From IMG/VR virus record IMGVR_UViG_3300020156_000058, positions 1 to 38,542 of that record: 38,542 nucleotides of DNA; one strand, 5' to 3'. This document shows, in pieces, positions 1-38,542 of the stretch. This DNA comes from a virus. The notes beneath the pieces were generated by a model. It had not been told where the DNA came from. It searched no databases and saw only the letters and a program-made list of their open reading frames with translations. The position numbers were made by a program, and so were the translations under genes. Position 1 is the first letter of the stretch. Each line of letters opens with the position of its first letter.

Positions 1-242
1 AGGCCGCTCGGTTTCTGAATGTGGACAGCTACTGGCTCGCCACCGGGAAGGGCAAGCCGCGCCCAGTCGAAGCAACGACCGAGGCACCGGACCGATGGCC
101 ATTTCAACGCCTTGCCCTTGACCGCTTCCTGCAGCTCACCCAGAATCAACAACGGGGCATCGAAGATTCATTGATCAAGCAGGTCGATGCATTCCTTGGA
201 CCTGCGCCTGTCAAAAGCAAAGGCCACCGTAAAGCGGCGTGA
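1..242 (+). CDS. C-terminal part of small XRE-type phage repressor (5' end cut by window edge)
   Basis: The frame is open from base 3 to the stop at 240-242. The first residues read ARFLNVDSYWLATGKG, the usual segment after the HTH of short phage repressors (the 'FLxVxxxWLATG' stretch). A GTG at 21 could be a start, but the open frame upstream argues against it. The remainder (DRWPFQRLALDRF...) resembles the C-terminal tail of roughly 110-130-residue XRE regulators that lack an S24 peptidase domain. Its N-terminal HTH is almost certainly the partial gene at 38413-38542 at the other window end: joining the ends keeps the frame (...GNTK-E-AARFLN...). Family members usually have several more residues between these blocks, so a few codons may be missing at the join. 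The role inferred is lysogeny maintenance by binding the operators at 761-796 and 38349-38409. Confidence 0.7.
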   Translation, partial: AARFLNVDSYWLATGKGKPRPVEATTEAPDRWPFQRLALDRFLQLTQNQQRGIEDSLIKQVDAFLGPAPVKSKGHRKAA

Positions 243-760: not shown

Positions 761-796
761 AAAGCATACTTGCTTTTAGAACAAGCATGCTTTAAT
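761..796. promoter_or_regulatory. left operator/promoter region (OL-like)
   Basis: A perfect dyad AAAGCA-TACT-TGCTTT occupies 761-776. A second palindromic site AAGCATGCTT lies at 783-792, and ATTAAAGCAT/ATGCTTTAAT bracket the whole region. Closely related dyads occur in the Cro-repressor intergenic region at 38349-38409. Candidate promoter hexamers TTGCTT (770-775) and TTTAAT (791-796), 15 bp apart, overlap the sites on the plus strand, so bound repressor would block the rightward early operon. The operator role is inferred. Confidence 0.6.
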
Positions 797-826: not shown

Positions 827-925
827 ATGTCCTATTTCGGATTCCTCTTGATTGGCCTTGCGGCCGCGTTGCCGCTGGCGGTACTCGGCGATCATGTGAT
901 GGCCGCGCTCAGGGGCGAAGCATGA
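827..925 (+). CDS. 32-residue membrane peptide, first gene of early operon
   Basis: ATG at 827 is preceded by GGGAG at a normal distance. The product is almost entirely one hydrophobic helix (FGFLLIGLAAALPLAVLG) followed by a short charged tail. Its stop overlaps the next start (ATGA at 922-925), typical of translational coupling in this operon. Function unknown; its reality is supported by the ribosome binding site and the coupling rather than by homology. Confidence 0.5.
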   Translation: MSYFGFLLIGLAAALPLAVLGDHVMAALRGEA

Positions 926-1056
926 AGCGTTTCATCCGCACCCACTTGGAAGGCGTCGTCATGGCGCTCGTGTTCGCCGGCAGCTTTGTGCTGGCCAGCA
1001 CGCTCGACAAGGCGGCTCACGAACGCCACGAAGCGGCGCAGGACGCCAGCCGATAG
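922..1056 (+). CDS. 44-residue single-span membrane protein
   Basis: The start ATG overlaps the stop of the preceding small gene, and AGGGGCGAAG lies just upstream. Residues MKRFIRTH are basic, followed by one hydrophobic segment (GVVMALVFAGSFVLAS) and a charged C-terminal tail rich in Glu, His and Arg. This suggests a single membrane span with the basic end inside. No family recognised. Confidence 0.5.
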   Translation: MKRFIRTHLEGVVMALVFAGSFVLASTLDKAAHERHEAAQDASR

Positions 1057-1065
1057 GGAACAGCC

Positions 1066-1287
1066 ATGGCCGCCCGAATCGAACCGAGCCCACAGCAAAT
1101 GCAGGAGGCGCTTCGCGCCGCCCGGTGCGGGCGCAACCTCGAAGCGGCCCTCTCAGATCCCCTGCTGCGCATCTTGATCACCAATCACGCCGAGGCACTG
1201 GCCCGGCAGCAGATCGACATTTCCCGCGCACGGCGCTTTTCCGGCCGGGCTGACTGGCGCGCACGCGCGGCCGGCGACACCGATTAA
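1066..1287 (+). CDS. small hypothetical phage protein
   Basis: A 73-residue soluble protein, predicted helical and rich in Arg and Ala, with one Cys (AARCGRNLEAAL). It lies in the early operon between a membrane peptide and another small conserved-looking gene, with short intergenic gaps. No motif tells its function. Confidence 0.5.
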   Translation: MAARIEPSPQQMQEALRAARCGRNLEAALSDPLLRILITNHAEALARQQIDISRARRFSGRADWRARAAGDTD

Positions 1288-1332
1288 CCACAACGCCGGC
1301 CAGCAGCCGGCACCACACCCAAGGAGCAACAC

Positions 1333-1575
1333 ATGCCCCCTCTCGGCAAACGCTACCGCGACGTTATCACCGGCTTTACCGGCGTCGCGACCGGCCACGT
1401 GACGTACATCAGCGGATGCAACCAGGTCCTGCTGGCACCCGCGGTCGCACCCGATGGCGCCCTGCGCGACGCGCAGTGGTTCGATGAGCAGCGGCTGCAG
1501 CCCGTCGAGGGCGAGGCCATCGTGCTGGACAACGGCAGAACCCCCGGCTGCGACCGTGCGGCGCCCGTGCGCTGA
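1333..1575 (+). CDS. small conserved-type phage hypothetical protein
   Basis: The start MPPLGKRYRDVITGFTGVATG follows AAGGAG at 1321-1326, a good ribosome binding site. The 80-residue product looks like a small beta-rich domain: 'GVATGHVTYISGCNQVLL' and 'WFDEQRL' are typical of short proteins seen in temperate phage early regions. No catalytic motif is visible. It lies immediately upstream of the nucleotide kinase gene in the same operon. Confidence 0.55.
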   Translation: MPPLGKRYRDVITGFTGVATGHVTYISGCNQVLLAPAVAPDGALRDAQWFDEQRLQPVEGEAIVLDNGRTPGCDRAAPVR

Positions 1576-1597
1576 TCTTCGGTACTGGAGGATGGCC

Positions 1598-2314
1598 ATG
1601 CAAACCAAGCACGCCGGCGGCCCCTATATGATCGTCGGGCTGGTCGGCCGCGCCGGCGCCGGCAAGGATACCTGCGCGCAAATCCTTGCCGACGCCCAGG
1701 CCTTCGCGACGGTGGCGTTTGCCGACGCGTTGCGCCGTGAGCTGGTCGGCGCCTTCGGCATCGATCCCCGGCTTTTCGCGAACCGCACGACGAAGGAGCA
1801 GGTGCAGCCCGCGCTGGCGCTCAGCCGCGCCAACGAGCCGCGGTTCGTCGAACTCATGCGTGCGCTGGGCGAGGATCTGACGCGCCCGCGCAGCCCGCGC
1901 GGCCTCATGAGGCTATGGGGCACCCAGTACCGCCGCGCGCTGGATGGCGACAGCTACTGGCTGCTGCGCCTGCACGAAACGGTGGAAGTGCTGCAGGGGC
2001 AAGGCTGGCGCCGCATCGCCATCACTGACATCCGCTTCCTCAACGAAGCGGCTTTCACGCGCGACATCGGCGGCGCGACCTGGCGCATTCACCGCCGGCT
2101 GGCTGACGCCGTGGCGCCCGATCACGACAGCGAGGCCGAGGTCGATCAGATCACCCCCGACCTGCGCTTGCACAACGATGGCAGCGTCAGCGCCCTGGTT
2201 TACGACGTTCTGTGCGCGTACGAGCAAACCCTCTTTCTCAACGGCCCCAGCGGCCACCACAACTCTCAAGTGGGGATTTTCCATGCAGACCATTCAACAA
2301 CCACCGCTCGCTGA
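1598..2314 (+). CDS. deoxynucleoside monophosphate kinase-like protein
   Basis: A P-loop GRAGAGKDT is present near residues 18-26, followed by helical and RFLNEAA/DIRF-type segments found in the T4 gp1-like dNMP kinase family. Members phosphorylate dNMPs to feed phage DNA synthesis, so a cytosolic role in nucleotide metabolism is likely. Two in-frame ATGs exist (1592 and 1598). GGAGG at 1586-1590 is too close to the first, so 1598 is chosen. The last 32 bases overlap the start of the first retroelement target gene, tying the two together translationally. The substrate cannot be read from the sequence. Confidence 0.7.
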   Translation: MQTKHAGGPYMIVGLVGRAGAGKDTCAQILADAQAFATVAFADALRRELVGAFGIDPRLFANRTTKEQVQPALALSRANEPRFVELMRALGEDLTRPRSPRGLMRLWGTQYRRALDGDSYWLLRLHETVEVLQGQGWRRIAITDIRFLNEAAFTRDIGGATWRIHRRLADAVAPDHDSEAEVDQITPDLRLHNDGSVSALVYDVLCAYEQTLFLNGPSGHHNSQVGIFHADHSTTTAR

Positions 2315-2642
2315 AGGCGAGAAGTACGGCTTCGCCATCGGCGACAAGAACGGCAATTTGTATCACGTCATCCTGCTGCCCGGCGACAGCGACCGAGCCG
2401 GTTGGCAGGCCCAGATGGACTGGGCGAAAAGCATCGGCGGCGACCTGCCTACCCGCGCTGAACAGGCGCTGCTGTGGCAGGAGCACCGCAACGAGTTCGA
2501 AACGGAGGCGTACTGGAGCAATGCGATCGAAGAAGACGACGCCGACTACGCCTGGTGCCAGCTCTTCAGCTACGGCCACCAGAGCTACGGCCACAAGAGC
2601 AACGGGCTTCGCGCCCGCGCCGTCCGCAGATTGCCCATTTAA
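2283..2642 (+). CDS. DGR variable protein 1 (C-type-lectin/DUF1566-like target)
   Basis: A 119-residue protein whose residues 89-117 are encoded by the variable repeat at 2547-2633. The body (VILLPGD..., GGDLPTRAEQALL, AYWSN, then YAWxQxFxxGxQ...LRARAVRRL) matches the DUF1566-type C-type-lectin-like fold used by DGR targets. The variable residues sit on the surface loops next to the conserved AW and RAVRR framework. No signal peptide, membrane span or tail-attachment domain is visible. AAGTGGGG lies 7 bases before the ATG, and the gene overlaps the kinase by 32 bases. A paralogue follows at 2697. The ligand is unknown. The tropism role known from Bordetella phage BPP-1 cannot be assumed here, because the gene is in the early operon. 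Confidence 0.85.
   Translation: MQTIQQPPLAEGEKYGFAIGDKNGNLYHVILLPGDSDRAGWQAQMDWAKSIGGDLPTRAEQALLWQEHRNEFETEAYWSNAIEEDDADYAWCQLFSYGHQSYGHKSNGLRARAVRRLPI
2547..2633 (+). repeat. variable repeat VR1 of the diversity-generating retroelement
   Basis: An 87-bp (29-codon) copy of the template repeat at 3686-3772. It differs from the template at 11 positions, in codons 4, 6, 8, 9, 11, 13, 14, 15 and 18, and each difference is at a template adenine. The last 30 bases (GGGCTTCGCG... to ...CAGATTG) are identical and include a 15-base G/C-only run, the likely IMH-type initiation region. The stop codon follows two codons later. Confidence 0.93.
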
Positions 2643-2656
2643 CCCTTATCAATTTC

Positions 2657-2671
2657 GCCGGCCGCGCCGGC
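2657..2671. promoter_or_regulatory. GC hairpin downstream of VR1
   Basis: GCCGGC-CGC-GCCGGC can form a 6-bp stem with a 3-nt loop, starting 23 bases after VR1. Phage DGRs such as BPP-1 have a hairpin or cruciform just 3' of the variable repeat that boosts target recognition. This could be its counterpart, but it is farther away, shorter in loop than the known example, and no similar hairpin was seen after VR2. Confidence 0.3.
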
Positions 2672-2696
2672 ACGTTCGCTCATCTGGGAAATTTCT

Positions 2697-3152
2697 ATGA
2701 CCGTCACGCTCCAGGCCATTGAGGCCAAGCACGCAGAAGTCGCGGCGATGATCGCGACCTACAAAGACCAGCAGCCCACGTCGTACCGAATGCCGGAAGC
2801 CATGATCGAGCTCGCCCGCGGCGAAGACTACGCCGGCATCGTACTCGACGATGAAGGCAACCCCTCGCACCACGTGATCCTGCTGCCCGGCGAAATCGAG
2901 GGTGCTGACTGGGAAGCCGCCAACGCGTGGGCGGAACAGCAAGGCGGCGACCTGCCCACACGCCGCGAGCAGGCCCTGCTCTACGCCAATTGCAAGGCAA
3001 AGTTCCAGCCGCGCGCCTATTGGTCCGTCGAAGAACACGAGTCCGATTCGGGCTACGCCTGGTACCAGACCTTCGGCTACGGCCTCCAGTACGGCTACCA
3101 CGAGAGCTTCGGGCTTCGCGCCCGCGCCGTCCGCAGATTGGTCATTGATTAA
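2697..3152 (+). CDS. DGR variable protein 2 (C-type-lectin/DUF1566-like target)
   Basis: A 151-residue paralogue of the preceding gene with about 30 extra N-terminal residues (a helical start, MTVTLQAIEAKHAEVAAMIA). The shared core includes HHVILLPGE, GGDLPTRREQALLY, AYWS and YAWYQxFxYG...LRARAVRRL. Residues 120-148 are encoded by the variable repeat at 3054-3140. There is no signal peptide or transmembrane segment. The gene starts 54 bases after variable protein 1 and ends 17 bases before the Avd-like gene, giving the order target-target-accessory-template-RT. Two targets served by one template is less common than one. The extra N-terminal helix could mediate oligomerisation or partner binding (inference). 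Confidence 0.85.
   Translation: MTVTLQAIEAKHAEVAAMIATYKDQQPTSYRMPEAMIELARGEDYAGIVLDDEGNPSHHVILLPGEIEGADWEAANAWAEQQGGDLPTRREQALLYANCKAKFQPRAYWSVEEHESDSGYAWYQTFGYGLQYGYHESFGLRARAVRRLVID
3054..3140 (+). repeat. variable repeat VR2 of the diversity-generating retroelement
   Basis: An 87-bp copy of the template with 14 differences, in codons 6, 8, 9, 11, 13, 14, 15, 17, 18 and 19, all at template adenines and none elsewhere. Its pattern differs from VR1 at most variable codons, so the two repeats were mutagenised independently. The terminal 30 bases are identical to both VR1 and the template. Confidence 0.93.
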
Positions 3153-3169
3153 TTCATCCATTTGACGCC

Positions 3170-3544
3170 ATGGCACAGCACACACAGCTCCCGATCTACA
3201 AGGTCGTGTACGACCTCTTGAACATCGTGGCCGACATCCACACGAACATGGACCGCAGCTTCAAGCGCACCATCGGAGAGAAGATCATTTCCGAATGCGT
3301 CGAGCTCACGGTGCTGGTGTTCCGCGCGAATGTCAGCCGCGACAAGGCGCCGTACCTGACCGAGCTGATCGAGAGGCTGCAGGTGATCGAGTTGCTGCTG
3401 CGCCTCGGCAAAGACAAAAGCATCATCCACCGGCCCGCTTGGGCCCGAGCCATCGAACAGACCACCAGCATTGGCAAGCAGGCCAATGGATGGCGCAAGT
3501 CCGCATCTCGCCCGCTCCATGGGGGTCACGATTTCCATGGCTGA
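3170..3544 (+). CDS. avd: Avd-like DGR accessory variability determinant
   Basis: A 124-residue, basic, all-helical protein (IYKVVYDLLNIVADIHTNMD, ERLQVIELLLRLGKDK) of the size and helix pattern of the four-helix-bundle Avd family. In BPP-1, Avd forms a pentamer that binds the reverse transcriptase and template RNA and is needed for cDNA priming. The assignment rests on position (between targets and template), length and helix pattern, because sequence identity in this family is low. No clear Shine-Dalgarno is visible before the ATG. The stop overlaps the candidate reverse transcriptase start at 3537 by 8 bases. Confidence 0.75.
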   Translation: MAQHTQLPIYKVVYDLLNIVADIHTNMDRSFKRTIGEKIISECVELTVLVFRANVSRDKAPYLTELIERLQVIELLLRLGKDKSIIHRPAWARAIEQTTSIGKQANGWRKSASRPLHGGHDFHG

Positions 3545-4883
3545 GCGATCTTTCAATCTGGTCGTGCCGCTGGCCCACAAGGCCACCGACATGCGCACCA
3601 CGGATACCGCCGGCTCAACGCCGGGCCGGTCTGGCGCAGTTTCCCGGCTGAGCATTCGGCCGGGCGACGTAGATTGCACGACGGGTACGCCTGGTACCAG
3701 AACTTCAACAACGGCAACCAGAACAACAACCACAAGAACAACGGGCTTCGCGCCCGCGCCGTCCGCAGATTGTCATGCGCCGTCCGACCTGTTCCCCCTG
3801 CTCGCCCAAGCCTATGCAGACTGCCGCCGCACCAAGCGCAATAGCGCCAGCGCGCTGGCCTTCGAGGCGCGCCAGGAAGCCCATCTGCGCGAGCTGCGCG
3901 ACGAGCTCGCCAGCGGCTCCTATCGCCCCGGCCCGTCCGTCTGCTTTGCCATCACGCGCCCCAAGCCTCGGGAAGTGTGGGCCGCCCAGTTCCGCGATCG
4001 CGTTGTGCATCACCTGCTGCACAACCATATCGCGCCGCGGTTCTACGCCCGCTTCATCGCCGATTCTTGCGCCTGCATTCCTGGGCGCGGGACGCTGTAC
4101 GGCGCGCAGCGCCTGGAGCGCCACGTGCGCAGCATCTCCCGTAACTGGAGCCGCCCGGCCCAGTACCTGAAATGCGACTTGGGGAATTTCTTCCTAAACA
4201 TCGACAAGAACATCCTCCACCGCCTGCTAGCGCGGCATATCAGCGAGCCGTGGTGGCTGCGCCTGACTGAAACCATCCTGCTCCATGACCCGCGACAGGA
4301 CTACCAACTGCGCGGCAGCATGCAGGCGCTTGCGCGGGTGCCGGACTACAAGCAGCTCACGCGCCAGCCTGCGCACCTAGGACTGCCCATCGGCAACCTG
4401 CCCAGCCAGTTCTTTGCCAACGTGTACCTGAATGAATTGGATCAGTTCGTCAAGCACGACCTGCGCTGCCGGCATTACGTCAGGTATGTCGACGACTTCG
4501 TACTGCTGCACGAGTCCCCGCAGTGGTTGACCGAGGCCAAGCGGCGCATCGAGACATTCCTTGCCGATGAGCTGGCTGCACACCTGAATCCACGCAAGAC
4601 GGTGTCGCAGCCTGTGGATCGCGGCATTGACTTCGTAGGCCAGGTCATCAAACCCTGGCGCCGCACCCTGCGCCGGACTACGTTCAACGCCGCCCTCTCT
4701 CGCGTCCGCACGATGCCGGCCGGCGACCTGTTCGAAGCCGCCAACAGCTACTACGGCACGCTGCGCCAGGCGACCCACAGCCATGGCGACCGTGCCGAGT
4801 TCTCCAACGAGCTACGCCGCCGTGGCCATAGCATCAAGACGGACCTCACCAAAACCTATCGCCGATCCGCGAGGAAATCATGA
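3537..4883 (+). CDS. DGR reverse transcriptase
   Basis: The RT domain occupies about residues 80-448. It contains LKCDLGNFF (first catalytic Asp, codon 4176-4178), GLPIGNLPSQ (4380-4409) and RYVDDFVLLH (YVDD at 4485-4496). The (I)GNLPSQ form, with SQ instead of the retroviral SP, is the hallmark of DGR and group-II-like RTs. It would copy the template RNA with adenine-specific infidelity. The start is uncertain: the RT-like sequence begins near 3774, but no ATG, GTG or TTG in this frame follows the template repeat. The nearest are 3591 and 3537; the latter overlaps the avd stop and is preceded by a G-rich run. The template repeat would therefore be translated, in another frame from the targets, as a Thr-rich leader of this protein. 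Length from 3537 is 448 residues, longer than the 328 of BPP-1 Brt. The stop overlaps the next gene (ATGA). Confidence 0.85.
   Translation: MAERSFNLVVPLAHKATDMRTTDTAGSTPGRSGAVSRLSIRPGDVDCTTGTPGTRTSTTATRTTTTRTTGFAPAPSADCHAPSDLFPLLAQAYADCRRTKRNSASALAFEARQEAHLRELRDELASGSYRPGPSVCFAITRPKPREVWAAQFRDRVVHHLLHNHIAPRFYARFIADSCACIPGRGTLYGAQRLERHVRSISRNWSRPAQYLKCDLGNFFLNIDKNILHRLLARHISEPWWLRLTETILLHDPRQDYQLRGSMQALARVPDYKQLTRQPAHLGLPIGNLPSQFFANVYLNELDQFVKHDLRCRHYVRYVDDFVLLHESPQWLTEAKRRIETFLADELAAHLNPRKTVSQPVDRGIDFVGQVIKPWRRTLRRTTFNAALSRVRTMPAGDLFEAANSYYGTLRQATHSHGDRAEFSNELRRRGHSIKTDLTKTYRRSARKS
3686..3772 (+). repeat. template repeat (TR) of the diversity-generating retroelement
   Basis: An 87-bp template with 27 adenines, most of them in AAC codons relative to the target frame (YAWYQNFNNGNQNNNHKNN...). 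AAC codons randomise to NNC and can never become stops. The one AAG codon could become TAG. The last 30 bases are shared exactly with both variable repeats; sequences beyond both ends differ. It lies between avd and the RT domain, in the avd reading phase, with no in-frame stop between the avd stop and the TR. Confidence 0.93.
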
Positions 4884-5317
4884 GCAACCCCCACCGCAAA
4901 GCCCGGCGGGCCAAGCGTTATACGCCGAAGATGGTGCGCACGCCCCTTATGGGGCACTTCTGCGACAAGATCAGCCTGGACATGCACCTGGCGCTGGCTC
5001 GACTGTTTAGCCTGCCCACCACGGACGCGCGTGACGATCTCGCCGACACGCTGAATCTGATCGGTCTGACCATCCAGGGCGACAGCCGTTTCGCCGAAGA
5101 ACTGGCCGTGCTGAACCGGGCCGCCGCGGTGCTGGATCCATACCAGGCGCCCGCCGAGCTACCTGAGGATGGCCGACACATCCTGTCCCACGCCGCCAGC
5201 GTCATCGACACCATTCTTGGCCTGCTGGACGCGGAAACGCTCTACGCGGCCGAACGCGCCTATGTCGCCGCCATGAGAGCGATACGGGCCAAAGGCGGCC
5301 GGGAGCACGCATGCTGA
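4880..5317 (+). CDS. phage hypothetical protein with basic N-terminus
   Basis: A 145-residue protein. The start MSNPHRKARRAKRYTPK is strongly basic; the rest is helical (LDMHLALARLFSL, RHILSHAASVIDTILGLLDAE). This architecture, a short KRYxPK motif and then helices, is seen in uncharacterised early proteins of temperate betaproteobacterial phages. It is coupled by 4-bp overlap to the reverse transcriptase upstream and by 7 bases to the methyltransferase downstream. Nothing shows that it belongs to the retroelement itself, though its position right after the RT makes that worth testing. Confidence 0.55.
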   Translation: MSNPHRKARRAKRYTPKMVRTPLMGHFCDKISLDMHLALARLFSLPTTDARDDLADTLNLIGLTIQGDSRFAEELAVLNRAAAVLDPYQAPAELPEDGRHILSHAASVIDTILGLLDAETLYAAERAYVAAMRAIRAKGGREHAC

Positions 5318-7194
5318 CCTCGCAGCTCGTCCTGGGCCTATCCGCCAAGCTGGTGGTGGACATCTTCGCAGGCGGCGGTGGCTGGTCGACCGCGTACGAA
5401 TTGGCCACCGGTCAGCACGTGCACATCGCGATCAATCACAACCCCGATGCGCTGAGCATGCACCAGATGAACCACCCGCAAACGCAGCATTTCATCGCCG
5501 ACGTGTGGGAAGTGTGCCCGCGCCAGGCGACTGGCGGCGCGCCGGTGGGCTGGCTACACCTGTCGCCCGACTGCACCGACCACAGCCAGGCCAAGGGCGG
5601 ACAGCCTCGGCGCAAGAACATTCGCGCCCTGGCCTGGGTGGCCGCCCGCTGGGCCGGCACGGTCAAGCCCGACATCATCAGCCTGGAAAACGTTGTCCAG
5701 ATCCTGAAATGGGGCCGCCTTATCGCCAAACGCGATCCAGCGACAGGGCGCGTGGTCAAGCTGGACGGGACCGTGGCCGAACCTGGCGAGCGCGTGCCTG
5801 TGCAGGACCAGTATCTGGTGCCGGACCCCAAGCAGCAGGGAAAGCACTGGCGCCGCCTGGTGGCGATCCTGCGCGGCATGGGCTACATCGTCGAGTGGCG
5901 GAAGCTGAACGCTGCCGACTACGGTGCCGGCACCACACGCACGCGCCTATTCATGATGGCCCGTCGCGACGGCCTCCCCGTCGTCTGGCCCGAGCCAACC
6001 CACTTCAAGAGCCCGGTCAACGGACAAAAGCGCTGGCGCGCCGCGGCAGACGGCATCGACTGGAGTATCGAGGGGCGCAGCATCTTCAATCGCTCGCGCC
6101 CGTTGGCCGACGCCACCATGCTCCGTATCGCCCGCGGCATGAAGCGGTATGTGCTGGACAGCGCGAACCCGTTCATCGTGCCCATCGCCAACTGGAGCCG
6201 CGATGGCTCGCACTCGACGCGGCAGCCTATCAGCACGGTCACGGCGAATCCGCGCGGCGGGTCCCATGCCGTGGTGACCCCTGTCCTGGCAGGGGTCGGC
6301 GGGCGAGCGGGCCAGAGTGAGCCGCGGCCAGCCAGCGAGCCGCACTACACCATCACCCGGAAAGGAGACAGCGCCGTCATTGCGCCGGTGCTGGTCCAGG
6401 CTGGGTACGGCGAGCGGGACGGCCAGGCCCCGCGTTGTCTCGACCACGGGCAACCGCTAGGCACCGTTGTCGCCGGCGGGATCAAGCATGCCCTCGCCAC
6501 GGGATTCATGGTACAGGCCAACGGCGGCTACAACACCACGCCGGCCCACGACCTGCGCCGAGCGGCGTCCACCATCACGAACACCGGCAGTCAGCAGCAG
6601 CTCATCACGGCACATCTGACGACGCTACGCCAGCACAGCACCGGCACAGCCGCCGGTGAGCCGGTGACCACCATGGCGGCCGCAGGACAGCACCATGGCC
6701 TTATCGCCGCCCATCTGACGGCGATGAGCCAGAACGTGACGGGCTCGGACATGCGCGACCCAGCGCAGACGGTACTGGCCGGCGCGGGCTGCTACGGCGT
6801 GGTTGAGTACGACATGCTGCCCGACGACGAGGCGGGCGCGCTGCGGGTGGCCGCATTCCTGATGCGCTACTACGGCGAGGGCGGCCAGTTGGGCGATCTA
6901 CGCGATCCAGCCAGCACGCTCACCACGCGCGACCGCCTGGCGCTGGTCACTGTGCACATCCAGGGCGCGCCCTACGTCATTGTGGATATCCGCCTGCGCA
7001 TGCTTTCGCCGGCTGAGCTCTATGACCTGCAGGGCTTCCCCAAGGGCTACATCGTCGAGCGCGGCCACGACGGCCGGGCCTTCACCAAATCCCAGCAGGT
7101 GCACATGGTGGGCAACAGCGTCAGCCCGCCCCCGGCGATTGCGCTGATCGCCGCCAATGCGCCGCGCGAACTTCTTCTGAGGAAAGCAGCATGA
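5311..7194 (+). CDS. DNA (cytosine-5)-methyltransferase, Dcm-type, with internal repeats
   Basis: Motif I FAGGGGW (residues 19-25) binds S-adenosylmethionine. The catalytic Cys is in LSPDCTDHSQAKGG (about 84-97), a variant of the usual PPCQ. ENV (126-128) is motif VI, TRTRLFMMAR matches motif VIII, and GFPKGY...VGNSVSPPPA gives motifs IX-X at the C-terminus. At 627 residues it is longer than a typical 330-450-residue enzyme. The extra length, roughly residues 300-560, is a series of about five related units of ~30 residues (AAHLTAM..., TTMAAAG..., DLRDPAST...) in the target-recognition region. It likely methylates phage DNA against host restriction. No partner endonuclease is encoded nearby. 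Target sequence unknown. Confidence 0.85.
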   Translation: MLTSQLVLGLSAKLVVDIFAGGGGWSTAYELATGQHVHIAINHNPDALSMHQMNHPQTQHFIADVWEVCPRQATGGAPVGWLHLSPDCTDHSQAKGGQPRRKNIRALAWVAARWAGTVKPDIISLENVVQILKWGRLIAKRDPATGRVVKLDGTVAEPGERVPVQDQYLVPDPKQQGKHWRRLVAILRGMGYIVEWRKLNAADYGAGTTRTRLFMMARRDGLPVVWPEPTHFKSPVNGQKRWRAAADGIDWSIEGRSIFNRSRPLADATMLRIARGMKRYVLDSANPFIVPIANWSRDGSHSTRQPISTVTANPRGGSHAVVTPVLAGVGGRAGQSEPRPASEPHYTITRKGDSAVIAPVLVQAGYGERDGQAPRCLDHGQPLGTVVAGGIKHALATGFMVQANGGYNTTPAHDLRRAASTITNTGSQQQLITAHLTTLRQHSTGTAAGEPVTTMAAAGQHHGLIAAHLTAMSQNVTGSDMRDPAQTVLAGAGCYGVVEYDMLPDDEAGALRVAAFLMRYYGEGGQLGDLRDPASTLTTRDRLALVTVHIQGAPYVIVDIRLRMLSPAELYDLQGFPKGYIVERGHDGRAFTKSQQVHMVGNSVSPPPAIALIAANAPRELLLRKAA

Positions 7195-7922
7195 CCTACC
7201 TACTCGAAAACATCAACAGCACCATCGCCAAGATCGCCGAGTGCCTTGCCCGCGACCCGAAGCGGGCGGAGCGGCTGCTGAGGGACCTGCAGAAGCTCGT
7301 TCGACAACTGGCCGAGGATGCGCCGGCATCGGGCGGCACCTTGCCCGCCATCCCCTTCGGCCCTGCCTTCATCGACGCGTACCGGGAGCACTACCTTGCC
7401 TGGGGCGAGCAATGCTTTGACGCCGGCCGAGCAAGCAATCGGCTGATTGACGTCATGGCGGGCACCTCGCTCAGCACTGGTCACCGCCCGATCGCGTCTT
7501 GCAAGCAAACGAGCACTCACCTTGCAACGCTCGAAGGCCTCCGGGTAGGTCTCGAGTGCGATTGGAAATTGAACGATGCGGAAGCAAAGTTGGACGCATT
7601 GGATGCAGCCATCTCCAAGCTGCGCGAGGCGGGCGAGCCGGCAAAGCGGGACTGGACTGCGATCAACGCCGCCATCGAAGAGTACGTTGGCGGCTATGAG
7701 CTGCGCGCTGATCCGGGCAATCACACGCCAACGGAATTCGAGCAGTTCCTGATCCTCGACGCTATCCACGGGTTGCTTGCAGAAGATGACTTCTTGTCGC
7801 TGATGAGCGCCGCGCCCCAGGCCAGCGCCGACCGGCACATCGCTTCTCTGAAGGGCCAGGTCACCAAGCTGCGCAAGAAGCGCGGACAGCGACAGAACTG
7901 CGGAGGGGTTGATGGACGTTAG
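7191..7922 (+). CDS. hypothetical early-operon protein
   Basis: A 243-residue, mostly helical protein starting at an ATG that overlaps the methyltransferase stop (ATGA). The N-terminus is a leucine-rich amphipathic stretch (INSTIAKIAECLARDPKRAERLLRD). The C-terminus ends in a Lys/Arg-rich helix (SLKGQVTKLRKKRG), suggesting nucleic-acid contact or a coiled coil. It is the last gene of the contiguous early operon before the inverted membrane-protein gene. No family recognised. Confidence 0.55.
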   Translation: MTYLLENINSTIAKIAECLARDPKRAERLLRDLQKLVRQLAEDAPASGGTLPAIPFGPAFIDAYREHYLAWGEQCFDAGRASNRLIDVMAGTSLSTGHRPIASCKQTSTHLATLEGLRVGLECDWKLNDAEAKLDALDAAISKLREAGEPAKRDWTAINAAIEEYVGGYELRADPGNHTPTEFEQFLILDAIHGLLAEDDFLSLMSAAPQASADRHIASLKGQVTKLRKKRGQRQNCGGVDGR

Positions 7923-9570: not shown

Positions 9571-9954
9571 ATGGATCAAGAATTGCCCGTGCAGCCAGCG
9601 GATGCGGCCGCCTTTCTGGGGGTCTCCTTGCGGCAGGTGTACGATTTAGCCGCCCCACATGGGCCAATCCCTTGTTACAGAACCGGCCGGCGCATCACCT
9701 TCGACCGGTCTGACCTGCTGGAATACCGACAAAAATGCCGATCTACCGAGACAAAGCGCGCGGTCGCCTCGTGTTTGAATTCGACCGTCACATTGCCGGC
9801 CAGAGGATCCGCGCTCGAAAAGTACTTCCGGCGGCGTGGACTCGAGCCCAGGCTGACGCCTTCGACCGCCAGGAAAGTGCCAGGCTCTACGCCGTCGCAA
9901 GCGGGGTCGAACGTCCTGAGCATCTCATCGAAGAGGCCATCGCGGTCTACCTGA
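9571..9954 (+). CDS. xis: excisionase-type HTH protein, overlaps integrase
   Basis: Residues 8-48 (PADAAAFLGVSLRQVYDLAA, then IPCYRTGRRITFDRSDLLEY) are a MerR/AlpA-type winged HTH of the excisionase family. It is predicted to bind near attP and direct excision. GAGGCGAG lies just before the ATG at 9571. The frame continues well past the HTH to 9954, overlapping the integrase in another frame by 220 bases. That tail is Ser/Arg/Pro-rich and may be either a genuine dual-coded extension or translation to the first available stop. Position immediately upstream of int supports the call. Confidence 0.7.
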   Translation: MDQELPVQPADAAAFLGVSLRQVYDLAAPHGPIPCYRTGRRITFDRSDLLEYRQKCRSTETKRAVASCLNSTVTLPARGSALEKYFRRRGLEPRLTPSTARKVPGSTPSQAGSNVLSISSKRPSRST

Positions 9955-10838
9955 AGGAACGGGCCCCGCAGCTTAAGACCGGTTACCAGATCGAGGGCGA
10001 ACTGCTCTTGATGTACTGGGCCTACCAGGGCAAAGCTCTGCCCGCGCTACCGGACGTATGCCGGGATTACTCAGCGCGCGGCACGAAAGCGGACGGCAGC
10101 CCCCTTGCGCCGGCCACGATCCGGAACCGCATCCGATACCTGACCAGCGCCTGCCGGTATGCTTGGAAGTACCACGCTATGTGTAAGCATGACCCTGCGT
10201 CAAGGGTCGTGACGCCAAAGGTGCGCAACGAACGCCAGTTTTACGTCAATCGCCGGCAGATGCTCCTGCTGGCCCTGGCCACGCAGCACCGCCCTACCCG
10301 CGTGGCGATCCGGATAGCGTTCTATAGCGGCATGCGCATGCACGAAATCCGCACCGCCGTGCGCGAGGATGGAATGTTCACCCTACCGGACACCAAGAAC
10401 GGTAACCCCCGGCATATCCCGATGCACCCGAAAATCCGGTCGGCGGCCAAAGTGAGGCTACCTGACCAGAGCACGATTTCGAGACATTGGAGAGAGGCGC
10501 GCACGGAGATGGGCATGGAGTGGCTGCACTTCCACGACCTGCGCCATTCTGCGGCCAGCGAGATGATCAACTGCGAGGTCGATCTGTATACAGTCGGTGC
10601 CGTGCTGGGGCACAAATCTGCCCAAAGTACGAAGCGATATGCGCACCTCGCCACGGCGGCATTAGGGCGGGCGCTGGGGAAGATTGGCAAGAAATCCCCC
10701 ACCAAAGAAAAAACGCGGGTTGCGGAAACTGCCCGCAAACCCGCGTCAACACTTGGTAGGCCCCCCGAGAGTCGAACTCGGCACCAACGGATTATGAGTC
10801 AAGGCCGCGATATACGCGCAAAGAAGAAAGCCGCTTGA
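9735..10838 (+). CDS. int: tyrosine-family site-specific integrase
   Basis: A 367-residue protein of the usual length for phage tyrosine recombinases. Catalytic residues are recognisable: Arg in FYSGMRMHEI, Lys in PDTKNGNPR, HxxR in FHDLRHSAAS, His in GHKS and the nucleophile Tyr in TKRYAHL. The N-terminal part carries an arm-binding-like domain followed by a core-binding helical region (TIRNRIRYLTSACRYAWKYH). Its last ~30 codons run through the tRNA-like attachment core. The C-terminal tail (GRPPESRTRHQRIMSQ) is therefore encoded by attP and would change on integration unless the host sequence restores it. It catalyses integration into a host tRNA gene. Confidence 0.9.
   Translation: MPIYRDKARGRLVFEFDRHIAGQRIRARKVLPAAWTRAQADAFDRQESARLYAVASGVERPEHLIEEAIAVYLKERAPQLKTGYQIEGELLLMYWAYQGKALPALPDVCRDYSARGTKADGSPLAPATIRNRIRYLTSACRYAWKYHAMCKHDPASRVVTPKVRNERQFYVNRRQMLLLALATQHRPTRVAIRIAFYSGMRMHEIRTAVREDGMFTLPDTKNGNPRHIPMHPKIRSAAKVRLPDQSTISRHWREARTEMGMEWLHFHDLRHSAASEMINCEVDLYTVGAVLGHKSAQSTKRYAHLATAALGRALGKIGKKSPTKEKTRVAETARKPASTLGRPPESRTRHQRIMSQGRDIRAKKKAA
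10754..10800 (-). other. attP: attP core: 3' part of a tRNA gene (CAU anticodon)
   Basis: Read on the minus strand, the segment starts at an anticodon loop CTCATAA and continues through the variable region. It then has a T-arm stem CCGAG/CTCGG around TTCGACT, an acceptor strand GGGGCCT and the terminal ACCA. The 5' half of the tRNA is absent, so this is not a functional tRNA but the identity block carried by phages that integrate into a tRNA gene. CAU with this loop fits tRNA-Ile2 or elongator tRNA-Met. It overlaps the integrase 3' end. Phage genes on both sides show the phage is not integrated here. Confidence 0.8.
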
Positions 10839-15790: not shown

Positions 15791-17869
15791 TTAGATGACG
15801 GTGACAGGCACGCGTTGATGGCATGCCCAGTTAAAAATCGGATGACCCTGCAAGTCGACATAGGGCGATGAGTCGCGCAGACAAGACCGCGGCCCGGTCG
15901 TCGGGCCGCCAGAGGCCCCTGCGGTCCCAATATCGGCGATGCCAATCATCTGACCGGTACCGGTGGGAACGCCCGATAGCGCGACGGAAACGGTGTTGTC
16001 AATATTGACAACCACCGATGTGATCGAGACGGCATTGCCGTCGCCAGCGTCGATCCAACGTAGGCCCAAATCGCCGGGATCGAGCACGTTCACGGTATCG
16101 GCGACCAGGGGCGCATGCGGCGTATGGAAAGTGATCGTTACGACAGTGCCAGATAGCTCGGCGCCGGTCGCGTGCGTCGGCAACCATGCCTCGCCCCGAT
16201 ACGCCGCAATCATTGCTTCCGAGAATTTTGCTCCGAGCCGGCGCGACGATTCAGATCGCATATGCACACCATCATCGGCATGCAGCAGGTGATACTTCGG
16301 CCCTGCGCAGAGGAACTGATCCGGATGGTCCAGCGCCAGCTGCAACTGCTCGAACGGCACCAGCGATTCCGTGGAGCCGTAGGCAGTCCAGCTTGAAATC
16401 TGATCTAGCAGCACCAGGATCGGCGAAACTTGGGCTGTGAAGATCGCGCGCAGATCAGTGTCGTAGTTCGGCTGCAGATCCAGCATCCACATGCTGTACT
16501 CGCCGGCAGGCATGTCCCGGTCCGCTTCACCTTGAATCCAAGTCGCAACTGGGCACACAACCTCAAGGCCAGCCTCGTCGCACAGTTGCTTTGCGCGTTG
16601 TGCCGCCGTGATGCCGTTTTGATACGGCGTCGACCCCTTGCCCAGTTCGGTGATCGATGTGCCACCCTTGCCGTACTCGCCCGCGATTATCGCGACATCA
16701 TCGTCATAGCGGACGGTGCCAAGCAGCGCCGTCGCCGACTGCTGTATCAGAGGAACCTCTGCAATGTTGGAAGCGCCTGGGACCAACCATTCAACTTCCC
16801 ACGGTCGGATCGGCACGGTGCTTAAATCGCCATCTCGACGCACACCATGGTTGAATGTAACCAGTCGGTCGGGGGCCGGCGGCGTCACCGTCATTGGCAC
16901 CGTGGCGGCACCGATCGCCAGAGACTGGCCCGACGCCAGGGCAAACACAACCCGAGCAATCTCAGGACCGAACGGGCCGCCGGGCACCACCTGCCGGCGA
17001 CGCAACGCTATGGAGCCGAATGCATCGGTCAGCCACTGAACCTCCCCCTGCACCAATTCTGGCGCCCAGTTGTCATACACGTTGTCCGTGATCTGAAGCT
17101 CGCCCAGACGTTCATTCCAAGCGTAGATTTGGCGCGCGCCCTCGACACCCTTTGTGTAAACCCGGGAACGGCCGCGCAAGCCCGTGCCCATATCAAGGGA
17201 ACCGTCATGGCGTTGCCCCATGACAATCCGGCCGCCTTGCGACCACGTCAGTCGATAGTCGCCGTCGAGCAACTGCTCACCGCCCGCGACGAAGCCCCCG
17301 CGATGCGTCACACCAAAAGCAGCGCGGCCTGCGACCTGCACCAAGTACCGGTACACCGCGCCCAGGTACGGCAGACCCGGCAACTGATCCGTCAACGTGC
17401 GAAATACACCAGCACGCCCATCCACATAAGCCAACATGTTGCCGGCCCCATCGGCGACCCGCCACGGGTATGGCCATAGCCCACGGGCACTTACCCCGAC
17501 GGCCAATGCGTCGGCGGCAACCTGGTCCAGCTGCGCAGCGCTAGGCGGCTGAAGGCCCGACCATAACCAGGCAGTGCCATTCCATACGTAGTATCCATTC
17601 AGCGCGGGGTTCGGATCGTTTGTCACCTGTCCTACGGTGGGTACGGGCTGAGCCAGATCCGCGTACATGTCGGCCTGAGTCAAGTACGTGACCATGCGCG
17701 CGGCGCCGGCTGCCACCTCAAGCACCTCGCCTCTCAACGTCTCCAGGTTGGAGACATCATTGCCAACCCGGTTGACATTCGGCTCGCCAAGCGGGCCATT
17801 GACAAACTTCTCTAGGGTGCTGGCGTCCGTGCTCGCGCCCTGCAGATCTTGCGCGGTAATGTATTTCAT
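15791..17869 (-). CDS. tail fibre with SGNH/sialate-O-acetylesterase-like domain
   Basis: Start at MKYITAQDLQGAS (17869). The N-terminal ~100 residues look like a tail-attachment region with WNGTAWLWSG-type turns. The middle carries esterase blocks: GQSLAIG (nucleophile Ser), TWIQGEAD and DDGVHM (Asp/His). This is the order of SGNH and DUF303-type carbohydrate esterases. It likely deacetylates host surface polysaccharide during adsorption. 692 residues. It is the candidate receptor-binding fibre and carries no variable repeat. Confidence 0.75.
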   Translation of the reverse strand: MKYITAQDLQGASTDASTLEKFVNGPLGEPNVNRVGNDVSNLETLRGEVLEVAAGAARMVTYLTQADMYADLAQPVPTVGQVTNDPNPALNGYYVWNGTAWLWSGLQPPSAAQLDQVAADALAVGVSARGLWPYPWRVADGAGNMLAYVDGRAGVFRTLTDQLPGLPYLGAVYRYLVQVAGRAAFGVTHRGGFVAGGEQLLDGDYRLTWSQGGRIVMGQRHDGSLDMGTGLRGRSRVYTKGVEGARQIYAWNERLGELQITDNVYDNWAPELVQGEVQWLTDAFGSIALRRRQVVPGGPFGPEIARVVFALASGQSLAIGAATVPMTVTPPAPDRLVTFNHGVRRDGDLSTVPIRPWEVEWLVPGASNIAEVPLIQQSATALLGTVRYDDDVAIIAGEYGKGGTSITELGKGSTPYQNGITAAQRAKQLCDEAGLEVVCPVATWIQGEADRDMPAGEYSMWMLDLQPNYDTDLRAIFTAQVSPILVLLDQISSWTAYGSTESLVPFEQLQLALDHPDQFLCAGPKYHLLHADDGVHMRSESSRRLGAKFSEAMIAAYRGEAWLPTHATGAELSGTVVTITFHTPHAPLVADTVNVLDPGDLGLRWIDAGDGNAVSITSVVVNIDNTVSVALSGVPTGTGQMIGIADIGTAGASGGPTTGPRSCLRDSSPYVDLQGHPIFNWACHQRVPVTVI

Positions 17870-17882
17870 ACGAACTCGCAAT

Positions 17883-17925: not shown

Positions 17926-20832
17926 CTATGCGTGGAAATCCAGGTCGTTCTGGTAATACCGGGCGTCGTAGTTGATGGCTGTCACGGGGATCGTGCCGTC
18001 GTCATTCGGCGACCCTTTCTCAGTCACCAAGAACGGCCGCGCCTGGCGGGGACTCTCTCCCACGCCAATGATGTAGGTGGTCGTGTTGTAGGCCTCGCCT
18101 CTCGCCACGATCGGCGTACGCGGCACGCGCTCCAGCAATGCGTGGCGCCGACTACCGCCATACGTCACCTCCATCGCCTCGACCCGTCCGTCACTGTTTT
18201 GCAGGAAGATTCGATAGGCCTGCCCATCCTGCCAATCGATCGGCTGAGACAGCGTTATCAACCGCGGCTCATCCGCATCCACGGCCAGCACGTCGCCATC
18301 CAGGCTTTGGCCCCGCGTGTTATCCGCACAAAGAAACCGCTCGCTGACCGTCAGCATGTTGGCCTCCGGCAACGCGGTGAATTCCGCCACTTCATCCTGG
18401 AATTGGATCTTGTTCCAGGCGCGCCAGGCGTGCAGGTAGGCCTGCTCATAGATGCGCACGCCCACCGACTCGATACGCTTGGGGTTCACCGCCGAGCGGT
18501 CTTCCGGCAAGTAGATTGTCACGGGGGCATCGTTTTCAGGATCGATCCACTGATACTCGACGCCGTCATTGCCTTCGGAATTGCCGAACTGGTCGGTACG
18601 CTGTTCACTGCCGGGCACCTTGTTCCGGTGGTTGAATAGCAGTGAACTGTCATCCGTCTCCCGCTCGAAGAGTAGGCGGATCACGCTGCCTCGACGGTAG
18701 GCCTTGCAGTACACCGCCTCCGCAATCATCGCGATCGTTTCCTCGAAGCTCAGATTGTCGGAATCGATGGTGTAGTTGAACTGCGCGACATCCACCCCGA
18801 AGTAGTCGCGGACAGCCTGCGCGGTCTGGTAAACGTTGTCGAAATCCACTTCTGCCAGCGTGCGATTCCCAATCTTCGAGTCCAGGCAGATAGCCGATAT
18901 GATGTCGGCGACATTGTTGGTCGGATACAGCTCGGCGGAAAAGCTGCCATCCGCTTCCCGGCGTGGCAGCTTGCGCGTCACTAGCATGTTCAACTTGCGC
19001 TCTTTGATGGCCAACGCGCCATCGGTGGCGAAGGTCACCGACTGGGCGGTCGTGATGTTACCGAAGTGGGGTTCATTGACATACGACGCCACGTACAGGT
19101 CTCGCCACTTGATCTCGTCAACGACCGAGCCTTCGAAGTCATCGTCAGAAGGAGTAATCCGGCGGTTGCGGAACCGCCACGCTTTGCTTCGGACTCCGCC
19201 CAGCGCTGCTCGCAGAGTGTCCGCACGTGTCGACCTACTCACAGCCGAGCCTTGAATAGTTCGGTCATAAATCTGTATTGGCCCGGTCGGATTATTCGCC
19301 TCATCCAGTCGCTGTGCCTCCAGTCGGTAGGCAACATCACGACGGCTTTGAGACTGTCCGTTGTCTGCGTACAGACCATTCAGGGCAATAACATTGCCAA
19401 TTACCTCGTCGATATAGTCGAACGACCTCACCTCCATCCAACCCACCCAACGTTCCCCGCTAGTGACAATCACTGGACGCAGTGATTTCGACTGGCCGCC
19501 ATAGTCGTTCAGCATCACATCCCAGCCCGGATTGACCGCGGCCGGGTTGTTCAGGGTCAGCGTGGTCGACGTGACAGTGTTGACCACGTAGGTGCCCGAC
19601 AGGTCGAACTGCACTACACCGGAAGGCCGGCTGAGCGTCGGCCCGCCCCGCACCTCTGAAAATCGGTTCCGGAAAGCGCTCCAGGCGCCAGTGTTGCTAG
19701 ATATGTCGAGGCGTACCGCCGTCGTAGCGGCCAGCTCGTCGTAGGTTGAATACAGTACTGGGTAAATCCCGTTGACATTGCCGTATACCTCGTAATCCTG
19801 GCCGGCATCGCCGCCAGTATTCTGGGTCCAGTGGATTGTTCCGTTGGTGATCGTCATGACCATCCCACCGCCCCAGTCGGCCGTGCGATTGCCCGGAATG
19901 ACCACTTCGCCCCATTCTGGCTCGCCATCGGCCCTGAACTGCGCCTCATCCGGGCCCAGCGAGTAGGTGAAGATGCCCTCTGTCTGGGCAGCTTCCGAGA
20001 TCACTACCGTGTCGCCGGGCACGAACAGATCGGCATAGTCGGCGCTGGAGCCCAGGTACCGCACCACATTGGGCGACTCGAAACGCGTGGACGCACGCAC
20101 CACCCGGCCAGCATCCTGGGGCAGCAGGGTCTGGCCGTTTACCGAGCCCACACGCTTGGCTGTCAGGACGGGAATGTTGATGGGGTCGCCGATGGTCAGC
20201 TGCGGCGCGCCGCTGTTCGGCGATGTGAAGGGGCCGTAGACCTGCACCGAGGACCCCGCGATCTGCGATATCGAGGTGGTGTCGTCACGCACATCGTGGA
20301 TCTCATAGCTGCCCCGGCCTACGCACATGTAGGCGATTTCCTGCTCGACGTGGTTCAAGAATATCTTGTACGGCGGCGCGAGCAGATCCAGCGTGGAACG
20401 CACGGTCCCGTAGATATCCGGGAGCCTGCCGTTGATGCGTGCCTCGTTGGTACGCTCGGACAGCCCATTATTCGGGCTCTCCTGCTGCACGTTCCGCTGC
20501 GTGGCATTGGGCGGATCCGGGGCGAGAATAGCCGTCAGGATCATCGATGCCGTTGACAGCGCGAGCGACACGGCGATGGCCACGAGCGTGCTTGGATCTC
20601 GCGGGAACACCTCCACAACAAGCGGGCCGGTTAGAGTGTTCAGGCGCTGCTCATCCTCCGGCGCAGCGGGCGTCACGATTGCGCCGGTCGACATGTCGAC
20701 AATTCGCCCGCCCGCCGGAAAATGGCGCCTGCCAAACTCGCGACGGAGGAAGGCTGTCACATCCCCGTCGACAAAATGTTTCTCGGGCGCTGCCACGTCC
20801 GGCGCGCGATACAGATACACCAGCACGCTCAT
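17926..20832 (-). CDS. host-specificity/tail tip protein J-like
   Basis: A 968-residue protein at the tail-tip position between the NlpC-like gene and the fibre. An early hydrophobic segment (TLVAIAVSLALSTASMILTAILA) and the following NGLSERTNEARINGRLPDIYGTVR are characteristic of TipJ/GTA-type host-specificity proteins. Beta-rich repeats follow. It forms the tail tip hub and contacts the cell. Its start overlaps the preceding gene's stop. Confidence 0.8.
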   Translation of the reverse strand: MSVLVYLYRAPDVAAPEKHFVDGDVTAFLRREFGRRHFPAGGRIVDMSTGAIVTPAAPEDEQRLNTLTGPLVVEVFPRDPSTLVAIAVSLALSTASMILTAILAPDPPNATQRNVQQESPNNGLSERTNEARINGRLPDIYGTVRSTLDLLAPPYKIFLNHVEQEIAYMCVGRGSYEIHDVRDDTTSISQIAGSSVQVYGPFTSPNSGAPQLTIGDPINIPVLTAKRVGSVNGQTLLPQDAGRVVRASTRFESPNVVRYLGSSADYADLFVPGDTVVISEAAQTEGIFTYSLGPDEAQFRADGEPEWGEVVIPGNRTADWGGGMVMTITNGTIHWTQNTGGDAGQDYEVYGNVNGIYPVLYSTYDELAATTAVRLDISSNTGAWSAFRNRFSEVRGGPTLSRPSGVVQFDLSGTYVVNTVTSTTLTLNNPAAVNPGWDVMLNDYGGQSKSLRPVIVTSGERWVGWMEVRSFDYIDEVIGNVIALNGLYADNGQSQSRRDVAYRLEAQRLDEANNPTGPIQIYDRTIQGSAVSRSTRADTLRAALGGVRSKAWRFRNRRITPSDDDFEGSVVDEIKWRDLYVASYVNEPHFGNITTAQSVTFATDGALAIKERKLNMLVTRKLPRREADGSFSAELYPTNNVADIISAICLDSKIGNRTLAEVDFDNVYQTAQAVRDYFGVDVAQFNYTIDSDNLSFEETIAMIAEAVYCKAYRRGSVIRLLFERETDDSSLLFNHRNKVPGSEQRTDQFGNSEGNDGVEYQWIDPENDAPVTIYLPEDRSAVNPKRIESVGVRIYEQAYLHAWRAWNKIQFQDEVAEFTALPEANMLTVSERFLCADNTRGQSLDGDVLAVDADEPRLITLSQPIDWQDGQAYRIFLQNSDGRVEAMEVTYGGSRRHALLERVPRTPIVARGEAYNTTTYIIGVGESPRQARPFLVTEKGSPNDDGTIPVTAINYDARYYQNDLDFHA

Positions 20833-32952: not shown

Positions 32953-33323
32953 TCGGGTAGGTAAGCCAGCAGTTCTTTACGCAGATCGCGCGCCACGTAG
33001 TACGCCTGGTGCGGCTGTTCGTAGCCGTTCGGCGTCTTGGTCATGTACGTACCTTCCGTCTCGACCAGCTCGCGCAGGCGCTCGGTCGCCGCCAGCCACT
33101 CGGCGTACAGCTTGCACACGACCACCCCGGCCAGGCCGAAGGTCGCGTGCTCGATGCCCGCGCTGCGCAGCTGGGCGCAGATGTAGTTCCAGATCTCCAG
33201 TTCGCGCGGACTGAGATCGCCTGGCGGCGGCGGAGGCGACTCGACCTCCGTGCCCATCTTGGGTGGAAGCTTGGCCGCCCCGCCACCCGGGATAACCGTC
33301 AGGTTCGGGGGATTGCCGTTCAT
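32823..33323 (-). CDS. terminase small subunit, P27-like
   Basis: 166 residues. The Pro-rich leader is followed by ELEIWNYICAQLRSAGI and VVCKLYAEWLAATERLRE, with NGYEQPHQAYYVARDLRKELLAYL. This is the P27-family pattern of small terminase subunits that recognise the packaging site. It lies just upstream of the large subunit. Confidence 0.8.
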   Translation of the reverse strand: MNGNPPNLTVIPGGGAAKLPPKMGTEVESPPPPPGDLSPRELEIWNYICAQLRSAGIEHATFGLAGVVVCKLYAEWLAATERLRELVETEGTYMTKTPNGYEQPHQAYYVARDLRKELLAYLPECCLTIPSFANVRSKLGGSGQLDLPFSSLVAHASADRKSYSAR

Positions 33324-33491
33324 GATTTCCTCTACCGCGCTCAGCGATGGAGGAACGCCTTACGCCAATCCACATGGGAGGGCCGTTTGACCCCCCCCCT
33401 CCTAAAATCCTGCTCCATAAATTCCTGACTGGGGGCGCGGTCTACAGGGGAGGCCCCGGGACTTTTACCCCCCCTACCCCTGCGATCCTGA
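33324..33491. other. gap before small terminase, candidate packaging-site region
   Basis: 168 bases with no gene on either strand that I can support. It contains long C and G runs (nine C at about 33390, several GGGG blocks). Its position directly upstream of the small terminase, next to an HNH gene, is where cos-type phages carry their cohesive site. This is inference only; no cos sequence can be pointed to. Confidence 0.25.
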
Positions 33492-33656
33492 TCACCTTTT
33501 GACCAACCGCACCACCACGCCCCGAAGGATCCAGCGCCGCACCCGGTCCAGGTCAGGCTGGCAGCCCGTCGCCAGGGACATCATGGAGACACCGGCCAGG
33601 TACCACCGCACCCACCACCGAACGCGCGCTTCCAGCTGAACCGTGTTTGATGCCAT
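33492..33656 (-). CDS. 54-residue conserved-type small protein next to HNH gene
   Basis: ATG at 33656 overlaps the HNH stop. MASNTVQLEARVRWWVRWYLAGV, then LATGCQPDLDRVRRWI, is a pattern seen in small proteins between HNH and terminase genes of temperate phages. One hydrophobic helix with two Trp. Function unknown; the coupled overlap supports it. Confidence 0.6.
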   Translation of the reverse strand: MASNTVQLEARVRWWVRWYLAGVSMMSLATGCQPDLDRVRRWILRGVVVRLVKR

Positions 33657-38409: not shown

Positions 38410-38412
38410 GGC

Positions 38413-38542
38413 ATGCCAAGCACATTCGGACAACGCCTCGAACTAGCCCTGAAGCTCGCGGAGAAAAGTCGCAACGAGCTTGCAGAAGCCGCTGACCTCA
38501 CCGTCCAAGCGATCGGACAGGTGATTCAGGGGAACACGAAGG
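38413..38542 (+). CDS. N-terminal part of small XRE-type phage repressor (3' end cut by window edge)
   Basis: The start MPSTFGQRLELALKLAEKSR, then NELAEAADLTVQAIGQVIQG, is an XRE helix-turn-helix. The frame runs open to the last base. The first codons at the window start (...ARFLNVDSYWLATG) continue it in frame, see the 1-242 entry. The ATG is 3 bases from the last operator dyad, with no Shine-Dalgarno, so the transcript may be leaderless like lambda PRM. Confidence 0.75.
   Translation, partial: MPSTFGQRLELALKLAEKSRNELAEAADLTVQAIGQVIQGNTK

Follow-up and report, generated by a model that had tools for sequence, protein, structure and literature searches.

Phage diversity-generating retroelements (DGRs) are generally read as a means of changing host attachment. 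In phage BPP-1, the element has the order mtd-avd-TR-brt and diversifies one target, Mtd, which is encoded in the late structural operon beside the tail genes. Individual members of the DGR lineage described here have been catalogued before: the DGR of the Burkholderia phage Magia and its possible targets were reported by its authors (PMC7883833). DiGReF 2012 lists DGRs with two variable repeats (VRs), for example in Pseudomonas fluorescens WH6, and Roux et al. 2021 place the targets of viral DGRs in a structural or an unknown class. In the passages covered, neither source describes placement in an early operon, a pair of stand-alone targets or a link to the RT-15 RNA. Likewise, we found no earlier description of an early-operon DGR lineage in a literature search of incomplete coverage.

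Here, we analyze the DGR of a viral DNA of 38,542 nucleotides (nt), IMG/VR record IMGVR_UViG_3300020156_000058, positions 1 to 38,542 (hereafter, the window). The window carries a complete DGR, consisting of two targets (T1 and T2), the accessory variability determinant Avd, an RT-15 structured RNA, a template repeat (TR) and a reverse transcriptase (RT). The machinery is that of a normal DGR. It shares with BPP-1 the target-avd-TR-RT order, an adenine-specific template, Avd and a C-type lectin (CLec) target, and the two RTs are homologous, with 31.5% identity. It differs in the RT-15 RNA that precedes TR and in its targets: whereas BPP-1 has its single target among the late genes, the window and its relatives have two to four free-standing targets in the early region. 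The window DGR appears to be of the active type and to belong to a distinct lineage, the RT-15 RNA class, which is kept in the early operon between CI and the integrase. We propose that its targets are early-made, non-virion, diversified binders that would act inside the cell after entry, a reading to which we assign a probability of roughly 0.6.

All mismatches between the VRs and the 86-nt TR core, which contains 27 adenines, are found at adenines (11/11 in VR1, P = 5e-7; 14/14 in VR2, P = 4e-9). Both VRs end a few codons before the stop codons of their targets, and a scan of both strands of the window revealed no third VR. In an RT tree, the window RT clusters with other DGR RTs. Its reading frame is open from 3471 through the RT-15 RNA and TR, with an in-frame ATG at 3537 that overlaps the avd stop (ATGGCTGA), and the frame was open across TR in 109 of 138 loci. 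We considered the possibility that the RT protein is encoded through RT-15 and TR, but found no coding evidence for it: the conserved RT-15 core was in the RT frame in only 79 of 133 cases, and third codon positions were hardly more variable than the others. Both in the window and in phage Cruim01 (L004, 16559–16751), the RT-15 model (RF03018) falls on the stretch 5' of TR that is occupied by the DGR RNA. At least in these two genomes, this Rfam family is therefore the DGR RNA, and its presence may help to recognize DGRs of the lineage.

The DGR was assigned to the left early operon because of the operators, the gene overlaps and the strand. The left operator (761–793) precedes a run of + strand genes, and matching CI-type sites are also present at 38352–38410, between Cro and CI. 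The 3' end of the deoxynucleoside monophosphate kinase gene overlaps the start of T1 (2314 versus 2283), and overlapping starts and stops link the RT, the gene for a protein of 145 amino acids (aa) at 4880–5317 and the C5-methyltransferase. The ATGA overlap of start and stop makes it likely that the RT and the 145-aa gene share one transcript. No terminator-like site and no sigma-70-like promoter were found on the + strand between 793 and 8346, although this is a weak test. All structural genes, including those for head, tail and fiber, are on the − strand, opposite the DGR; the BPP-1-type arrangement, with a target in the late structural operon, is not seen in the window, where both targets are on the + strand behind the left operator. 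Taken together, the presence of the DGR and its placement in this operon are almost certain, the operon being early by synteny. An earlier note, made from the window alone, had put the DGR in the early operon, with its targets between a nucleotide kinase and a methyltransferase, and had contrasted this with the BPP-1 target in the structural region and with a reversed tail operon that has its own SGNH fiber without a VR. We arrive at the same layout and at the same location of the BPP-1 DGR, and the early placement appears to be general among the relatives.

Scans identified relatives of the RT in 136 viral and 269 bacterial-genome stretches, while searches of E. coli genomes (blastn) and plasmids (tblastn, E ≤ 1e-60) gave no RT match. 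The hosts named in the record titles were mostly Burkholderiales, Rhodocyclales, Gallionella-type bacteria and Pseudomonas, and carriage of the lineage DGR by prophages was common. The early-operon DGR is the hallmark of one RT lineage, whose carriers are temperate phages, or prophages, of Betaproteobacteria and Gammaproteobacteria. Its targets are mostly 120–210 aa long and free-standing. Two targets were present in 44 and three in seven of the 53 phage loci whose upstream sequence was long enough to judge, none of them on the opposite strand; among the 76 bacterial loci with a target (median length, 158 aa), 50 had two, 19 had three and two had four. Two to four small, same-strand targets were thus found at 51/53 loci in phages and 71/76 in bacteria. 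In loci with a known repressor (Magia gp57, QDWS, Cruim01, L035 and L045), the third target is located between that repressor and the RT and shares their strand. In nearly all relatives that have an integrase, it lies downstream, within 12 kilobases (kb) or across the contig ends. When at least 9 kb of flanking sequence was available, the downstream position was seen in 48/57 bacterial loci, against an upstream one in only 2/63 bacterial and 0/33 viral loci. A constant methyltransferase partner was considered and dropped, as a C5-methyltransferase was present in merely 16 of 45 records.

Phages Magia (Burkholderia), QDWS (Shewanella), Haboob (Pseudomonas), phPA-G, LPPA56, Cruim01 and SC_8 belong to the same lineage and carry small targets, Avd, TR and RT in the early region, although the number of targets and the neighboring genes vary. 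We found no functional test of the DGRs of these phages in the literature. No VR was detected outside the early region, on either strand, in Magia, QDWS, LPPA56, Haboob, phPA-G, SC_8 or the searched part of Cruim01. The record of Hujiaoplasma phage zrk29-1 (OP650936, L090) and that of QDWS (OK094664, L003) are both 47,902 nt long and have equal DGR match statistics; the Tenericutes host stated for zrk29-1 looks doubtful.

Twelve pairs of near-identical cassettes were compared, four of which were identical throughout. Differences were found at 195 of 623 TR-adenine sites versus 5 of 1217 other VR sites, while TR was constant. (One pair, L070/L072, is from the sister group described below, and some pairs share a member; these figures are counts, not independent events.) Between Haboob and phPA-G, 25/62 TR-adenine sites differed versus 0/98 other VR sites, with identical TRs and a 2.3% difference in the rest of the cassette. 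Because near-identical relatives vary at TR-adenine sites, and do so in both targets, diversification is active in the family, as seen in the relatives; the window itself has no near-identical record.

T1 and T2 were modeled with AlphaFold2 as single chains, from input alignments without rows from phage records. Both models have C-type lectin folds, with mean confidence (pLDDT) of 94.4 and 93.6, respectively. T1 consists of the CLec domain alone, while T2 adds a single N-terminal helix. The nearest solved structure for T1 was the C-terminal domain of Legionella Lcl (8q4e; Foldseek, VIA), with a Z score of 13.4 over 110 residues and 22% identity. The folds are alike, but the window targets have no collagen-like part, and their scores against PF07603 (Lcl_C/DUF1566) of 28 and 21.8 bits are below the gathering cut-off of 34.9, which leaves them outside that family. 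Searches of Pfam, PHROG and NCBIfam found no virion-attachment domain in T1 or T2, and nothing beyond the CLec region. Across 270 targets of the lineage, hydropathy analysis (not SignalP) gave no clear signal or membrane segment; nine targets had a borderline membrane segment, none of them clear by eye. The description of the two targets in the earlier note, as proteins of 119 and 151 aa without a signal, a membrane segment or a tail-attachment domain, thus holds.

In the proposed mechanism, infection or induction would lead to transcription of the operon and to production of T1, T2, Avd, RT and the TR RNA. RT and Avd would reverse-transcribe TR, introducing errors at adenines, and the resulting cDNA would replace the 3' end of each target gene, a step that is backed by the TR/VR patterns and by the near-identical relatives. 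The products would be small C-type lectin binders, presumably soluble in the cytoplasm. Each incoming genome would make its own early variant, which may bind a partner that itself changes within the host cell; candidates are host defense components, competitor phages and other factors of the host. If the targets are made before retrohoming, the progeny virions would contain parental protein and mutated genes, and we infer that this would suit a protein acting when the genome is next expressed better than a part of the virion.

The RT tree (66 rows) places the early small-target group on one side of a branch with support of 94/90; the long-branch joining of BPP-1 and Bise in this tree was distrusted. 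The sister DGRs (L070–L080) have RTs with 44–50% identity to that of the window and share with it a CLec/Lcl_C-like domain and similar spacing. However, they mostly have one large target (610–680 aa in most of those measured) with the CLec domain at its C-terminus, whereas the window has two small, stand-alone targets. The L080 target has a tail-fiber match, and the L072 DGR belongs to a P2-like tail operon, where it is preceded by a tail protein gene and followed by those for sheath and tape measure. The DGRs of BPP-1, Bise, ACA1 and ARM81mr are also in the structural region. The sister and BPP-1-type DGRs lie in tail regions, in contrast to the early group, so within this portion of the tree the DGR has relocated from one of these operon types to the other. 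Small targets also occur in a middle group (L060–L064; RT about 50% identical). Phages of P. aeruginosa hold both kinds of DGR, in the early region of Haboob (L006) and in the tail region of Bise (L172), whose RT is a distant one (36% identity). In the BPP-1 record (L175), a "variable region 2" is annotated at 33229–33558 within bbp36, an early-side gene.

We considered the possibility that the targets are nevertheless virion parts, made early, retained and attached non-covalently to the tail fiber or baseplate; tropism would then be switched as in BPP-1, but through a receptor-binding domain that is a separate protein. Most viral DGR targets carry a tail-protein annotation (PMC8144416), an antireceptor adjoins the DGR in ACA1, and one sister DGR sits in a tail operon, as described above. 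However, the window DGR is on the strand opposite to the late genes, its targets have no recognizable attachment domain, and no VR was found beyond the early region in the scanned phage records. Furthermore, 63–96% identical cassettes occur in phages without a detectably related virion protein, and in phages of both tail types. The Magia and QDWS cassettes have 88% DNA identity over 2.6 kb (RT 91%, Avd 96%, T2 90% and T1 63% identical), with little similarity elsewhere in the two genomes, and none of 11 Magia virion proteins had a match in QDWS, the window, Haboob or Cruim01 (tblastn, E 1e-3). Magia is a myophage (PMC7883833), and six of 44 relatives encode baseplate J, while the annotation of Cruim01 and phPA-G shows tape-measure and tail-terminator modules and no sheath in the parts examined; the lineage DGR is thus carried by phages with contractile and with non-contractile tails. 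(Haboob and phPA-G were dropped as an example of the same DGR with different virions, since their J-like tail regions are 80% identical, and Magia and QDWS were used instead.) As the cassette and its targets appear to move between phages with unrelated virions, a tail site dedicated to docking them fits these data poorly, though it is not impossible. The earlier note had offered three roles for the diversified proteins: action inside the cell, binding of another phage or a host factor, or non-covalent association with the virion. Overall, the comparative evidence leans against rather than for the last of these, a role in the virion, which we consider unlikely.

It is less probable still that the targets act extracellularly or on behalf of the lysogen, either released at lysis or made by the prophage, and bind competitors or surfaces. 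The Lcl domain that most resembles T1 is part of a collagen-like adhesin, according to its NCBIfam name, and prophage carriage would fit such a role; however, the targets have no clear signal peptide, lipobox or membrane segment, and their place behind the CI operators predicts silence in the lysogen. That the DGR is a passenger of little use to the phages, located by an accident of insertion, is very improbable: the cassette does move horizontally, as between Magia and QDWS, but at least two open-frame targets with a conserved domain are kept over about 120 loci, and the changes concentrate at TR adenines.

Several points weigh against early-made, intracellular binders. The best-characterized DGR targets act on surfaces or tails, and an early-made protein can persist and get packaged. 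The failure of tblastn to link the virion proteins leaves a shared docking site possible. A hydrophobic N-terminal stretch above a crude signal-peptide threshold was present in 19 of the 270 targets, none of them clear by eye. By homology, no operon gene links the targets to defense or counter-defense, except for a Lar-like gene in one relative, phPA-G; T1, T2, Avd and the uncharacterized operon genes were themselves searched for defense-gene homology, and none was found. The phPA-G gene (L088, 28745–29287), whose product is a Lar-like restriction alleviation protein, shares both early region and strand with the DGR, and is suggestive at most as a hint of a counter-defense role.

A lineage of free-standing, early-operon targets in phages with unrelated virions implies that phages probably make use of targeted hypermutation after entry as well. 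More tentatively, and with the odds somewhat against it, temperate phages might hypermutate early cytoplasmic lectin-fold proteins as a counter-defense or anti-competitor repertoire, an antibody-like library deployed within the host at the start of infection. If the ligands were indeed host defense proteins or rival phages, this would be an arms-race strategy of the phage, based on pre-emptive diversification within the cell. The question can be tested in isolates that are already in hand.

The coordinates of the DGR and of other features of the window are listed in Table 1. The CI-like repressor codons continue in frame from 38413–38542 to 1–242, and because this frame crosses the record ends, the genome is circular or circularly permuted.

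Table 1. Features of the DGR, the early operon and the tail region in the window.
Feature	Position	Strand	Evidence and remarks
Target 1 (T1), 119 aa, stand-alone C-type lectin domain	2283..2642	+	Contains VR1; AlphaFold2 model
Variable repeat VR1	2548..2633	+	11 mismatches to TR, all facing TR adenines
Target 2 (T2), 151 aa, N-terminal helix and C-type lectin domain	2697..3152	+	Contains VR2; AlphaFold2 model
Variable repeat VR2	3055..3140	+	14 mismatches to TR, all facing TR adenines
bAvd, accessory variability determinant, 124 aa	3170..3544	+	PF22296, 49 bits (cut-off 40); PHROG 3206 "Avd protein of DGR", 2e-28
RT-15 structured RNA (RF03018)	3506..3688	+	177.6 bits (cut-off 82), E 2e-43, full model length; directly 5' of TR
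Template repeat TR	3687..3772	+	86-nt core; 9 AAC codons in target frame
DGR reverse transcriptase	about 3762..4883	+	PHROG 1423, E 1e-111; PF00078, 46.7 bits
CI-like repressor, N-terminal part	38413..38542	+	Continues at 1–242, 123 aa in total; in-frame translation
CI-like repressor, C-terminal part	1..242	+	In-frame translation over the record ends
Left operator	761..793		Two CI-type sites, AAAGCATACTTGCTTT (761–776) and AAAGCATGCTTGTTCT (778–793)
Deoxynucleoside monophosphate kinase	1628..2314	+	PHROG 139, E 4e-40; PF21448
145-aa protein, no assigned function	4880..5317	+	Start overlaps RT stop (ATGA)
C5-cytosine DNA methyltransferase	5311..7194	+	PF00145
243-aa protein, no assigned function, same operon	7191..7922	+	Open reading frame
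Tyrosine integrase	9735..10838	+	PF00589; distal end of early region
Tail fiber with SGNH/SASA esterase domain	15791..17881	−	PHROG 4201, E 4e-87; no variable repeat
J-like tail tip protein	17926..20832	−	PHROG 469, E 2e-193

Between CI and the left operator, the + strand contains an open reading frame of 135 aa (294–701) with a lipoprotein-like N-terminus (LALAGC), and a terminator-like hairpin is located 3' of it, at 723–741. From its sequence and position, this frame is a possible lysogenic-conversion or exclusion gene.

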